A stretch of DNA of 64,000 nucleotides from Ramlibacter montanisoli. Its GTDB lineage: Bacteria > Pseudomonadota > Gammaproteobacteria > Burkholderiales > Burkholderiaceae_C. Under the pieces are notes generated by a model, which was given only the letters and a program-made list of their open reading frames with translations, did not search any database and was not told where the DNA came from. The stretch's first letter is position 1; each line of letters opens with the position of its first letter. The stretch spans positions 2,108,001 to 2,172,000 of the forward strand of contig NZ_JABFCS010000001.1 in assembly GCF_013087525.1 (NCBI RefSeq). Reading direction: 5' to 3'. Of the stretch, positions 41,036 through 51,898 are shown in pieces. Both the position numbers and the translations under genes were made by a program.

Positions 41036-41904
41036 TCAGCTCTCCGCGGTCTCGATGAACGAGCGCACCAGCTCCAGCTGCGCCGGCACGTTCAGCGCGG
41101 GCGCATGGCCGCAGCCCGGGATCTCCACCACGCGCGCGAGCCCCAGGGCCCCCGGCCCGCGCGTCAACATCTCCGCCGCCGCATCGGGCAGCACCAGGTC
41201 CGAGTCCGCGCCGCGCAGCAGCAGCACCGGGATGCGCAGGCGGTCGTAGTGCTCCCAGAGGTCGTAGTCCTTCGGGTGGTCCGTGAACTGCCGCACCATC
41301 GCGGGGTCGTAGTGCGGCGTCACGCGCCCGTCCGGCAGGCGCCGCGCGGAGGTCTCGGCCAGGCGCCGCCACTGCTCATCGGACAGCCAGCCATAGGGCT
41401 TGTAGACCTGCCGGAAGAAGGCTTCCAGTTCCGCCATCGTCGCGAACGCCGGCGGGTTGCCCGCATAGGAGCGATGCGCTCCACGGCCGGTGCCGCCAGC
41501 CGCGGCGCGTTGTCATTCAGGACCAGGCTGAGGATGCGGTCCTTCAGCGCCGGCTGGAACAGCCCTGACGCGCAGACCGTGCCGATCGCACCGCCCATGG
41601 AGGTGCCGACCCAGTGCGCGCGCGCGATCCCGAGCTGGTCCAGCAGGTCCGCGGCGATGCGCGCGTAGAACTCCAGCCTGTATTCGTTGCCGGGGTCGGG
41701 GCTCCACTGGCTGAAGCCGCGGCCTATCGTGTCCGGGCAGATCACGCGCCAGCCGGAGGACAGGAATTCGGCCAGTTCGTCCATGTCGCGCCCGGTGCGC
41801 GCCAGGCCATGCCAGGCGATCACCGTGCGCCCATGCTGCGCGCCCCACTCCGTGTAGTGGATCTCGCGTCCCGCGCAGGTGGCGTACTTCGAGACGAAAG
41901 GCAT
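41036..41904 (-). CDS. alpha/beta hydrolase, one-base frameshift
   Basis: Cytoplasmic alpha/beta-fold esterase or lipase-like hydrolase, 289 residues after correction. The oxyanion segment WHGLARTGRDMDELA, nucleophile elbow VGTSMGGAIG (Ser in G-T-S-M-G), Asp in LRGADSDLVLP, and His in PGCGHAPALN form a full triad. A base is lost near 41468-41471, breaking VERIASYAGNPPAFATMAEL. ATG at 41904 chosen because AAGGAGG precedes it. Lies 24 bases after the lipoprotein esterase in the same orientation; likely the last gene of the liv-esterase operon. Confidence 0.85.
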
Positions 41905-41927
41905 GGTCCTGTCCTCCTTGGGCATCG

Positions 41928-43736
41928 TCACTCCGCGCGGATGCTCTTGTTCGAAAGGGTCGCGTCGAACACCAGCTTGTTCGGCCACGCCGGCCACGCC
42001 ACGCCCAGCGAGACGTTGTTGGGATCGCCATTGCGCGCGAAGCTGCCCAGCGTCTGCATCATGGCGGCCGAGAGTTCCAGCCGTCCCGGCGCGTTGGCGT
42101 TGCTGAACCAGACGTTCGAGAACAGCGAGGGGCCGAAGTTGCCGAAGATGAAGGGCAGGTCCACCACGTGCACCGCGCCATAGATGTCGTTCCACGGCGC
42201 CGGCTGCTTGTCCCAGTCGAAGCGGTAGTACCAGACGTCGGACTGCTGCGTCTTCAGCGCGTTGAGCACGTTGTCGCGGCTGCGCAGGAAGAAGATGCTG
42301 TTCAGCGCTTCGGCGCGGGCGGTGAAGCCGGTGACCGGTGCGTTCGCCGGAAGCACGGACGCCACCAGCCAGTCCCCGATCGGCGTCTGCACCGCGGCAT
42401 TCGGGTCGTTCGAGAAATGGTGCGCGAAGAGCTGTGCGTCCGAGACCTTGCGGACGGTCGGGAACTCCGCGCCGACGATGAACAGGAAGGACGGGAACAG
42501 CTTGCCCTCGTCGCGCGTGTTGCCGGCCAGCACCGGCACCTTCACGTAGTTGCCGGCCTTGATCGCCTCGATCGGGTCGCTCGCGACCACCGTGCCGTCC
42601 GGGATGGGGCCCGAGCCGGCGAGCGTGGGCATGCGCGTGAGCAGCGTCGTGAACAGCTGCTGCGGCGCCTTGCCCCGCAGGTAGGCGGCGATCTCGGCCG
42701 GCGTCCTGCCGGCGATGTACGCGTTCGCGCTGGCTGCGTCGGTGGCCAGCCCGTCGACGATCAGAAGGTTCTGCAGCAGCGCCGTGCCCTGCCCCTGGTA
42801 GAAGCTGCGCGGGTTCAGCGTCGGCAGGCTGCCCGCCGGCAGGTTGGTGGCCAGCGAGATGCCGCCGGACAGCGGCACGTTGCGGTGGAACAGCTTCGGC
42901 GTCGCGGCCGTCATGAGCGGCGAGGTCTGCAGCGCCCAGACGTTGATCGCGCCGGCCGACTGGCCCATGATCGTGACGTTGTCCGGGTTGCCGCCGAAGG
43001 CGCGCGCGTTCTTCTGCACGAACTCCAGCGCCTTGATGCTGTCCAGCATCGTGAAGTTGCCGGAATCGTTGGACGCGTCGCCGGTCTTGAGCTGCGGCAG
43101 GTCCAGGAAGCCGAGGATGCCGAGGCGGAAGTTGGCGGTGACCACGACCGCGTTGGCCGCCTTGGCGAGCGCCGCGCCGTCGTACATCGGGTCGGCCGTG
43201 TAGCCGGAAACGTTGCTGCCGCCGTGGAAGAACACGATCACGGGCAGCTTGCCGCTGGCGTTCGCCGGGCTCCAGACGTTCAGGTACAGGCAGTCCTCCT
43301 GGCCCACCGCCAGGAACAGCGTGCTGCCGATGGTCGCGTCGTAGCGGTTGTTCGCACCCGGGCCGTAGATGCGGCCGTACTGAGAGCACGCATTGCCGAA
43401 GGCCGTGGTGGTGCGCACGCCGGTCCACGCGTCCGCCTCCTGCGGGGCCTGCCAGCGCAGCGCACCGACCGGCGCCTTGGCGAACGGGATGCCCTTGAAT
43501 GCGGTCACCCCGGCCAGGGCCTCGCCGCGCACCACGCCCAGGTGCGTCTTGCGCACGGTCACGTTGGAGTCGGCCAGCAGCTCACCGCCCTGCGCCGTCG
43601 TGCTCGCGCCACCGCCACCGCCACATGCCGCCAGCAGCATGGGGATCACGAGCGCCGCGACGGCGCCGCCCAGGCGCGTCCGCCAGCGGCCAGCAAGGCG
43701 CGCGGTGGACTGCAATGACTTTTCAGTTCTCAACAT
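41928..43736 (-). CDS. type B carboxylesterase lipoprotein
   Basis: 602-residue carboxylesterase (cholinesterase/lipase family) with a lipoprotein signal, lipobox LLAAC (Cys38), then a Gly/Ala linker. Nucleophile motif TIMGQSAGAINVW (GxSxG), acid in NTRDEGKLF, and His in AVHVVDLPFIFGNFG. It should be anchored in a membrane, probably the outer one, hydrolysing esters in the periplasm or at the surface. Its ATG overlaps the livM stop by 14 bases, so it is coupled to the transporter, an unusual arrangement that implies linked function. Confidence 0.85.
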   Translation of the reverse strand: MLRTEKSLQSTARLAGRWRTRLGGAVAALVIPMLLAACGGGGGASTTAQGGELLADSNVTVRKTHLGVVRGEALAGVTAFKGIPFAKAPVGALRWQAPQEADAWTGVRTTTAFGNACSQYGRIYGPGANNRYDATIGSTLFLAVGQEDCLYLNVWSPANASGKLPVIVFFHGGSNVSGYTADPMYDGAALAKAANAVVVTANFRLGILGFLDLPQLKTGDASNDSGNFTMLDSIKALEFVQKNARAFGGNPDNVTIMGQSAGAINVWALQTSPLMTAATPKLFHRNVPLSGGISLATNLPAGSLPTLNPRSFYQGQGTALLQNLLIVDGLATDAASANAYIAGRTPAEIAAYLRGKAPQQLFTTLLTRMPTLAGSGPIPDGTVVASDPIEAIKAGNYVKVPVLAGNTRDEGKLFPSFLFIVGAEFPTVRKVSDAQLFAHHFSNDPNAAVQTPIGDWLVASVLPANAPVTGFTARAEALNSIFFLRSRDNVLNALKTQQSDVWYYRFDWDKQPAPWNDIYGAVHVVDLPFIFGNFGPSLFSNVWFSNANAPGRLELSAAMMQTLGSFARNGDPNNVSLGVAWPAWPNKLVFDATLSNKSIRAE

Positions 43737-50431: not shown

Positions 50432-50447
50432 CCAGACATTTGTCTGG
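50432..50447. promoter_or_regulatory. upstream activator site, perfect palindrome
   Basis: CCAGACATTTGTCTGG: 7-bp perfect inverted arms around TT, 4 bases after the activator stop and about 86 bases before the -24 element. The position suits an enhancer-like site for the adjacent Fis-type activator. Confidence 0.7.
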
Positions 50448-50450
50448 TTT

Positions 50451-51898
50451 TCAGGCAACCAGTTCCAGGCGTTCGTAGAGCTTGGCGCGCGAGATTCCCA
50501 GCAGGCGGGCGGCGGCGAGCTTGTTGCCGCCGGTGGCTTCCAGCGCCGCCTGGATCGCCTGGCGCTCCACCTCGGCGACCTGTTCGGCGAGCGGCCGCAG
50601 CACATTGCCGGCCGGCGCCAGGTTGCGCGGCGCGGGGGCCGGCGGCACGCGTTCGATGCCCGCTTCGCGCAGCACTTCCTCCACGGCCGGCGCATCGATG
50701 TGCCGCGAATCGCTGCGCATCGCCGCCTGTTCCAGCACGTTGCGCAACTCGCGGATGTTGCCGCGCCAGCGCTGCGAGGACAGCATCGCGAGCGCGTCGG
50801 CGCCCAGGTCGAAGGGCGCGGTGCCGTTGCGCATGGCGATGTCCTCCACCAGCACTTCGGCCAGCGCCGGGATGTCCGCGCGGCGCTCGCGCAGCGGCGG
50901 CACCTTGATCGGCAGCACGTTGAGGCGGTAGTACAGGTCCTCGCGGAAGCGGCCTTCACGCACCAGCGCGCAAGGTCGCGCGAGGTGGCCGCGATCACGC
51001 GGGCGTCGAAAGGCACCACCTTGTTGGAGCCGAGCGGCTCGATCTCGCCTTCCTGCAGCGCGCGCAGCAGCTTGGGCTGCAGCGCCAGCGGCATGTCGCC
51101 GATCTCGTCGAGGAACAGCGTGCCGCCGTCGGCCAGCTTGAACTTGCCGTCGCGGCCCTTGCGGTCGGCGCCCGTGTACGCACCGGGCGCCACGCCGAAG
51201 AACTCCGCTTCCAGCAGCGTGTCGGGCACCGCGGCGATGTTGACGCTGACGAAGTTGCCGCGCGAACGCGCCGACGCCGCGTGGATCGCGTGGGCCAGCA
51301 GTTCCTTGCCCGTGCCCGTTTCACCGAGCAGCAGCACCGGGCTGGACGACTGGGCGGCCTTGCGCGCCTGGCGCTTCACTTCGACGGCGGCGGTGCTGCC
51401 GCCGACGAAGCTGGCCAGGGTGTACTTGCTGCGGCGCTGGCTCGCGAGTTCGCGGCGGGCGTCGTCCAGGTCGCGCTGCAGGTTGGCGAACTTGTGGATC
51501 AGCGGCTGCAGCGTCGTCTCGGGATGGTCGAACAGCACGATGCCCAGGGCACCGATCACCTTGCCGGCCTCGTCGCGCAGCGGGATGCGGCTGACGCCGA
51601 AGGTGCCGGCCTTGTTGGACAGCAGGTCGATCAGGATCGGCTTGCCGGTCTCCAGCACGCGGTGCATCTGCGTGTTCTGCACGACCTCGGACACGGGGTG
51701 GCCGACGAAGTCCTCCTCGCGCTGGAAGCCCAGGGCCGGCAGGTAGCGCCGGTACTGGTCGTTGATCCAGACGACGCGCGCGTTGCGGTCCACCAGCATC
51801 ATGCCTTCGCTGGCATTGGCGAACAGGTCGAACATGGAGCGCGCCGCCAGCTCCAGGATGCGCTGGCCGTCCAGGGGCAGCGATGCGTCGGACTTCAT
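50451..51898 (-). CDS. PAS-AAA+-Fis sigma-54-dependent activator, one-base frameshift
   Basis: 482 residues after correction. PAS sensory domain about 18-130 ([23 protein letters not shown]), AAA+ core with Walker A GETGTGKE and Walker [12 protein letters not shown], sigma-54 contact loop [13 protein letters not shown] (GAYTGA, not GAFTGA), and a C-terminal Fis helix-turn-helix ([22 protein letters not shown]). One G is lost near 50968-50971 ([13 protein letters not shown]). Its ATG overlaps the tctA stop (ATGA). It should activate the -24/-12 promoter just downstream in response to a ligand bound by the PAS domain. Confidence 0.9.

Follow-up and report, generated by a model that had tools for sequence, protein, structure and literature searches.

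A sigma-54-controlled locus in Ramlibacter montanisoli that probably couples poly(3-hydroxybutyrate) breakdown to uptake through a Liv-type importer

One question raised by bacterial genomes is what to make of a cluster in which the genes of an apparent branched-chain amino acid importer are interleaved with those of ester hydrolases. Such a cluster lies on the minus strand of a 64,000-nucleotide stretch of the Ramlibacter montanisoli genome (contig NZ_JABFCS010000001.1, positions 2,108,001 to 2,172,000; this whole stretch is ‘the window’ below): from 51898 to 41036 a sigma-54 activator, livK, a type-2 depolymerase of poly(3-hydroxybutyrate) (PHB), livG, livF, livH, livM, a carboxylesterase and an alpha/beta hydrolase follow one another. 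The genome comprises 4.75 Mb in 2 contigs, with a stated completeness of 90.28%. The original prediction, made from the sequence alone, had this order and single orientation right for every gene it named, down to an overlap of exactly 14 bp (43723-43736) between livM and the gene of the lipoprotein carboxylesterase; it took the set to suggest stepwise breakdown and import of hydroxyalkanoate oligomers or a related ester.

The account that best fits the analysis described here is that the locus degrades PHB and, under sigma-54 control, imports 3-hydroxybutyrate (3HB) or short 3HB oligomers, monomer and oligomer being taken jointly, through a Liv-type ATP-binding cassette (ABC) importer. This we regard as probable. 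A cluster usually labelled an amino acid transporter would then most likely be a kit for extracellular PHB breakdown and 3HB import, of which related bacteria have their own variants.

Conservation within Comamonadaceae

LivK matches (E <= 1e-90) were found in 70 of 120 sampled genomes of the family, as a single copy in 69 of the 70. Neighbourhoods were examined for 60 of the 69 remaining when the R. montanisoli genome is set aside, together with the best 80 of 572 loci encoding a relative; removal of duplicates left 130 distinct family loci. Of these, 116 are complete, while in 14 the sequence covered does not show livM or does not show the hydrolase. Three of these 14 (L042, L056 and L060) run for at least 4 kb past livM and seemingly lack the hydrolase; the other 11 stretches are too short to judge. 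The activator, livKGFHM and the alpha/beta hydrolase are kept across Comamonadaceae: among the 113 distinct loci that extend 4.8 kb or more ahead of livK, 103 have the activator upstream and on the same strand and in 10 it was not found, and the hydrolase is present in 116 of the 119 loci that offer at least 4 kb after livM or have the hydrolase in view. The original prediction had staked itself on such conservation, and within the family the neighbourhood is indeed conserved. LivK of the window is 93% identical to that of L070, a Ramlibacter metagenome-assembled genome; the genes found between activator and livK in some relatives look varied.

Proteins added to this core were counted in the 116 complete loci by seeking homologs of four only, the three extra esterases (depolymerase, carboxylesterase and the 3HB-oligomer hydrolase of relatives) and a second binding protein. 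The depolymerase occurs as the sole extra esterase in 15 loci and together with the oligomer hydrolase in 24, of which 15 also have the second binding protein; 16 have the oligomer hydrolase without the depolymerase, 2 of them with the second binding protein. In total the depolymerase follows livK in 39 loci, and the oligomer hydrolase follows livM in 40, in the slot that the carboxylesterase fills in the window. The carboxylesterase was first assumed to be a core member; that assumption was dropped, as it recurs in just 2 of the complete loci besides the window and so stands outside the conserved set.

Co-location holds at the level of whole genomes. A type-2 depolymerase is found in 20 livK genomes, counting 19 matches over the NF050059 cut-off and, below it, one contig-end fragment beside livK (G104), with other weaker matches excluded; it lies in the locus in 18 of the 20, R. 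montanisoli included, and elsewhere in 2. Matches to the 3HB-oligomer hydrolase, short fragments excluded, occur in 24 livK genomes (in G027 in pieces), 19 in the locus and 5 elsewhere. Genomes of the family sample that lack a livK match hold 9 further depolymerase and 10 further oligomer-hydrolase matches. A chance neighbourhood was considered and rejected, given the conserved loci and the co-location of depolymerase and importer in 18 of 20 genomes.

The second Liv-type binding protein (L109:18939-20102; Acidovorax and others) stands between the oligomer hydrolase and the alpha/beta hydrolase in 17 of the 116 complete loci. Its best solved match is 3lop, and through it the same importer may accept a wider range of ligands.

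Regulator and promoter

The activator has the architecture of a PAS domain, a sigma-54 AAA+ domain and a Fis-type helix-turn-helix, both in the pieces found in the window and in the intact ortholog of L070. The latter was used as query against 398 genomes of the phylum and returned 34 matches at E <= 1e-105. Of these, 26 come from outside the family, and marker proteins were used to search each of their neighbourhoods at E <= 1e-30. Fifteen lie near a 3HB dehydrogenase that is 63-73% identical to the one R. montanisoli itself encodes, and 13 of these 15 also have a GntP-type permease nearby. Three more keep company with a 3HB-oligomer hydrolase, genes of a tripartite ATP-independent periplasmic (TRAP) transporter, another short-chain dehydrogenase and an acetoacetyl-CoA-synthetase-like gene; among the rest, livK is nearby in 4, the GntP-type permease is the only marker in 3, and 1 lacks all of the markers. 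Three of the livK loci have dehydrogenases nearby at 33%, which the count leaves out.

In a tree of 42 activators, 35 homologs stand apart from 7 of the 8 paralogs in the R. montanisoli genome, with support 93/99. The PAS domain tells the same way: against the 15 dehydrogenase-linked homologs it scores 211-251, with 40-49 identical residues of 101-110, and against the 8 paralogs at most 49, even when up to 1.4 kb upstream is read in all three frames. The activator of the window thus groups with those found near 3HB dehydrogenase, apart from the other activators of its own genome. A listing in PMC8694187 gives Pseudomonas aeruginosa PA2005 as HbcR, with a PAS domain at 17-123 and a role in the regulation of (R)-3-hydroxybutyrate catabolism. 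By its sequence relations the activator of the window would be HbcR-like and would respond to 3HB or a derivative.

A promoter for such an activator to act on is suggested by a −24/−12 element, scored against a consensus that we take to be that of sigma-54. At least 9 of its 12 positions are matched 5' of livK in 122 of 128 distinct related loci, as against 42 on the reverse strand and about 14 under a first-order Markov model; at a threshold of at least 10 the figures are 108, 7 and about 3. TGTCTGA-type half-sites, similar to those of the palindrome at 50432-50447, occur upstream of livK at least once in 97 of the 128, the control here being livK coding sequence, which is biased; no clear enrichment of the half-sites appeared in outside-family loci.

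The importer

One possibility is that the transporter carries branched-chain amino acids after all, with the esterases as chance neighbours. The general Pfam and NCBIfam labels of its subunits say as much, and with Peripla_BP_6, two ABC_tran and two BPD_transp_2 domains it does belong, as a structural family, to the Liv-type ABC importers. Its five proteins, however, score far below the curated cut-offs of the LivK, LivG, LivF, LivH and LivM models. The binding protein is 23% identical to Escherichia coli LivJ and LivK alike, and the residues that presumably hold the amino group in LivJ, Thr102 and Glu226, align with Ala and Ile, here as in the Acidovorax and alphaproteobacterial homologs. With the conserved 3HB context added, ordinary amino acid transport was rejected as scarcely credible, and the argument of the original prediction that the context speaks against an amino acid carrier is supported.

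The closest solved structures, 3n0x (592 bits) and 3nnd (570 bits), presumably from Rhodopseudomonas palustris, are recorded only as ‘possible substrate binding protein’, and a search of structure records and literature found no ligand for them. In a ligand survey of R. palustris (PMC3223731), hardly any of the 22 non-matching COG0683 binding proteins gave a response to leucine, isoleucine or valine; their ligands were other amino acids, aromatic acids, fatty acids or dicarboxylic acids.

The enzymes

The depolymerase belongs to the type-2 family on its match to NF050059 (377.8 bits, cut-off 280, profile positions 1-304 of 305). Its best solved match is the PHB depolymerase 2d80/2d81 (313 bits), with which it has GLSSGG in common, and its N-terminus looks signal-like by eye; family and context together predict that it hydrolyses PHB. 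The oligomer hydrolase of relatives is identified by PF10605, which matches the inserted protein of Acidovorax delafieldii DSM 64 at 1053 bits; the same model matches 35 of the 120 family genomes and finds nothing in the R. montanisoli genome at its stated completeness of 90%. The presence of this oligomer hydrolase in the operon of relatives favours the reading in terms of hydroxyalkanoates.

In relatives, a loose motif search finds a lipobox near the N-terminus of both carboxylesterases (2 of 2) and of most oligomer hydrolases (37 of 40); therefore both esterase types may be lipoproteins, and the carboxylesterase in the oligomer-hydrolase slot looks like the replacement of one esterase family by another. 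Signal sequences judged by eye would place the three enzymes of the window as secreted, lipoprotein-like and cytoplasmic. A PF10503 esterase of the same genome is located outside the locus.

The genome encodes a 3HB dehydrogenase (369 bits), which lies divergent from a paralog (36%) of the locus hydrolase. This paralog is matched in 111 of the 120 family genomes, and a 3HB dehydrogenase adjoins it in 23 of the best-matching 30 loci, that of R. montanisoli included. The two themes meet on a plasmid of the alphaproteobacterium Mariluticola halotolerans, where activator, 3HB dehydrogenase, livK, livG, livF, livH, livM and hydrolase stand in series on one strand (identities to the window: activator 48%, livK 68%, hydrolase 54%); the annotated 3-hydroxybutyrate dehydrogenase there matches TIGR01963 at 370 bits, over a cut-off of 307. 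This plasmid operon, which joins 3HB dehydrogenase to importer and hydrolase, and the 15 of 26 outside-family activators found beside 3HB dehydrogenase both favour the hydroxyalkanoate reading with which the work began.

What is carried

The scheme that these observations suggest, with ligand, sensed molecule, transported molecule and enzyme activities all read from protein families and context, runs as follows. An HbcR-like activator would sense 3HB or a derivative and, together with RNA polymerase carrying sigma-54, drive the −24/−12 promoter before livK; the secreted depolymerase would break PHB, such as that of lysed cells, into oligomers; these the lipoprotein-like carboxylesterase would shorten, substituting for the oligomer hydrolase of relatives; LivK would capture 3HB and/or short linear oligomers, which LivGFHM would import; the cytoplasmic alpha/beta hydrolase would split the ester bonds left over; and the 3HB dehydrogenase encoded elsewhere in the genome would oxidise the monomer.

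Several findings weigh against this scheme or parts of it. On the regulatory side, the support of the activator clade (93/99) is under the 95/80 line given for the tool, and the paralogs have long branches and were cut at the N-terminus in the tree. The name HbcR rests on a gene order, PA2003-2005, that we take as given, and on a literature listing, rather than on P. aeruginosa sequence. The ligand predicted in PMC8694187 for the PA2005 PAS domain, where the paper treats it, is an autoinducer and not 3HB. On the enzymatic side, the alpha/beta hydrolase matches generic NCBIfam models only, all of them under their cut-offs; the 3HB dehydrogenase lies outside the locus of the window; and in 59 of the 116 complete loci all three extra esterases are missing.

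Further points on the same side come from distant relatives. A LivK match at E <= 1e-120 was obtained in 23 of the 398 genomes drawn across the phylum, 15 of them outside the family, and 14 loci (L151-L164) from 13 of those 15 were studied. livGFHM follow livK in 13 of the 14. Their company differs: 3 have a same-strand activator; 3 have a homolog of the locus hydrolase, placed past livM in two of them and ahead of livK in the third; and L151 alone has a 3HB-oligomer hydrolase, which comes behind an acyl-CoA-ligase-like frame. Several adjoin enoyl-CoA hydratase and acyl-CoA ligase genes, and at L161 and L162 the neighbours look aromatic-related by eye. Roseinatronobacter and Nitratireductor were considered as further cases in which the hydrolase stays with livM; this was given up, as the annotated alpha/beta hydrolases that follow livM there align with it at only 32 and 20 bits.

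Since the distant loci stand in such differing contexts, the substrate may vary across the wider LivK family. One could go further and suppose that the importer of the window itself takes up short hydroxy, branched or aromatic carboxylic acids or their esters, the PHB genes being one of several additions to a general acid-uptake operon; the acyl-CoA ligase, enoyl-CoA hydratase and MaoC genes near distant homologs would fit, as would the varied acids bound by R. palustris COG0683 proteins mostly unresponsive to leucine, isoleucine and valine (PMC3223731). The recurrent additions in Comamonadaceae, PHB depolymerase in one slot and 3HB-oligomer hydrolase in the other, nevertheless tell against so general a role, as do the 3HB links of the regulator's relatives, and we consider this broader reading unlikely.

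The 59 loci without extra esterase shift the emphasis, since they make the core look like a system for scavenging 3HB or its oligomers, to which polymer degradation has been added. The three-hydrolase locus of the original prediction is supported in its reading, less so in its membership: the carboxylesterase is not conserved, and about half of the complete loci do without any extra esterase.

Within the account favoured here, uptake of PHB products via the Liv-type importer, two versions divide the ground. Import might be restricted to monomeric 3HB, esters being cut outside the cytoplasm and the hydrolase acting elsewhere, for example on oligomers from intracellular storage PHB. In other bacteria this type of regulator goes together with a transporter of the GntP or TRAP type near 3HB dehydrogenase, and the system hbtABC is assigned 3-hydroxybutyrate in PMC10130141; the extracellular oligomer hydrolase of relatives could complete cleavage outside; and a hydrolase homolog is found in just 3 of the 14 distant LivK loci. 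This version is doubtful, though a serious contender: the hydrolase is kept in 116 of the 119 judgeable family loci, 59 of them lacking any extra esterase, and follows livM in Mariluticola too, all of which is most easily explained by ester import. Because the hydrolase is kept in the family even where no extra esterase is present, the evidence favours import of esters over monomer only, an argument tempered by its scarcity in the distant loci.

The stronger statement can be put forward tentatively, as somewhat short of probable: that LivK-LivGFHM imports 3HB ester oligomers, so that PHB enters the cell as dimers or short oligomers, whose breakdown the linked hydrolase completes in the cytoplasm; that one type of regulator, HbcR-like, works for the same nutrient with importers of three unrelated classes (GntP, TRAP and Liv-ABC); and that many ‘branched-chain amino acid transporters’ of Comamonadaceae are the same system. 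If true, this would correct the annotation of an importer whose binding protein has a match in 70 of the 120 family genomes sampled. An operon that is conserved and joins a depolymerase and an oligomer hydrolase to an ABC importer also offers testable genes.

Integrity of the locus

The original prediction described the gene content correctly and passed over breaks in the activator, in the hydrolase and at the end of livG. The activator changes frame near 50970; its first piece holds PAS_4 and Sigma54_activat, its second AAA_lid_14 and HTH_8. A frame change in the hydrolase lies near 41473. Between 47473 and 44876 the livG frame runs without a stop through livF, which is in another frame, into livH, an open frame of 865 aa that perhaps reflects a further indel near 46700. 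Taken at face value, such breaks would mean that the locus is decaying in this strain, activator and hydrolase being true pseudogenes. In related loci, however, the frame is intact across the matched stretches of 121 of 121 activators and 124 of 125 hydrolases (some genomes counted twice), and the broken pieces are still 81-97% identical to L070. Unrelated flanking genes are broken too: at 55115-57203, beside the tct genes described below, a response-regulator gene shows one frame change and a histidine-kinase gene two in comparison with relatives. Since these neighbours are also affected, the assembly probably carries scattered indels, and the breaks in activator and hydrolase are likely to be among them; a long-read assembly prone to indels would also be in keeping with the 2 contigs and the stated completeness of 90%. 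Decay of the locus was accordingly rejected as quite improbable.

Features and neighbouring genes

Coordinates of the locus are collected in the table. Upstream of the activator, in the same orientation, lies a TctABC-like tripartite transporter (tctC 55016-54057, tctB, tctA 53478-51895) with a divergent two-component system; the open frame of tctA overlaps the activator start by 4 bp, and a cluster of tctA-like frames recurs in 33 of 146 loci. On the other side, at 36224-39220, open frames judged by eye encode two squalene/phytoene-synthase-like proteins and then an FAD-dependent desaturase-like one, possibly a hopanoid-precursor set (HpnCDE).

Table 1. Elements of the locus in window coordinates, in the direction of reading
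Feature	Coordinates	Strand	Remarks
Sigma-54 activator (PAS, AAA+, Fis-type HTH), HbcR-like	51898-50451	-	two frames; break near 50970 in assembly
Perfect palindrome, 7-bp arms, directly past activator stop	50432..50447	-	candidate upstream activator site, suggestive only
Candidate -24/-12 sigma-54 promoter 5' of livK	50331..50346	-	11/12 positions of the presumed consensus
livK, Liv-type periplasmic binding protein	50287-49097	-	Peripla_BP_6, 194 bits
Type-2 short-chain-length PHB depolymerase	48977-47490	-	NF050059, 378 bits (cut-off 280); FnIII; C-terminal domain
livG, ATPase	47473-~46706	-	frame continues past 46706 into livF, no stop
livF, ATPase	46662-45937	-	profile match
livH, permease	45859-44876	-	profile match
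livM, permease	44868-43723	-	profile match
Carboxylesterase, lipobox-like N-terminus	43736-41928	-	PF00135, 301 bits
Alpha/beta hydrolase	41925 or 41904 (start) to 41036	-	no signal peptide by eye; frame break near 41473

Comparison with known systems

The nearest regulatory parallel is the HbcR (PA2005) regulon of P. aeruginosa, with which the window shares a PAS-AAA+-Fis activator acting with sigma-54; of the 26 outside-family homologs, 13 lie close to a 3HB dehydrogenase and a GntP-type permease together, as in PA2003-2005, where we take dehydrogenase, permease and activator to be grouped. The uptake component differs, presumably a GntP-type permease there and a five-gene Liv-type ABC importer with esterases here, and to our knowledge no secreted depolymerase or oligomer hydrolase is linked to the HbcR regulon. 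The proposed function of the importer, 3-hydroxybutyrate uptake, is shared with hbtABC, which we take to be of the TRAP type, whereas that of the window is an ABC importer. PMC10130141 presents hbtABC of Ruegeria pomeroyi as a transporter for 3-hydroxybutyrate, and a 2023 paper names a TRAP system as the sole confirmed route by which bacteria take up 3HB. Three genomes of one genus (L183, L186 and L193) hold what looks like a parallel system for 3HB oligomers, built on a different class of importer: a 3HB-oligomer hydrolase and an HbcR-like activator, then TRAP genes, a short-chain dehydrogenase and an acetoacetyl-CoA-synthetase-like gene.

Among the enzymes, the depolymerase resembles the extracellular type-2 short-chain-length PHB depolymerases (NF050059; 2d80/2d81) in catalytic domain family, GLSSGG, FnIII and C-terminal domain, and differs in that its gene is set into an importer operon, with livK on one side and livG on the other. 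3HB-oligomer hydrolases (PF10605), as which PhaY1 and PhaY2 of Ralstonia eutropha figure in an excerpt of PMC3430594, have their counterparts in the proteins that fill the post-livM slot of relatives, while the window holds there a carboxylesterase of another family. E. coli LivKHMGF with LivJ offers the same subunit types as the importer; the binding protein is the diverged part, with the amino-group residues absent, and the genes stand in the order K-G-F-H-M rather than K-H-M-G-F. No description of a Liv-type system for PHB or 3HB uptake was found in the open-licence PubMed Central literature. The regulator type and the enzymes are of known kinds; the importer class and the composition would be new.

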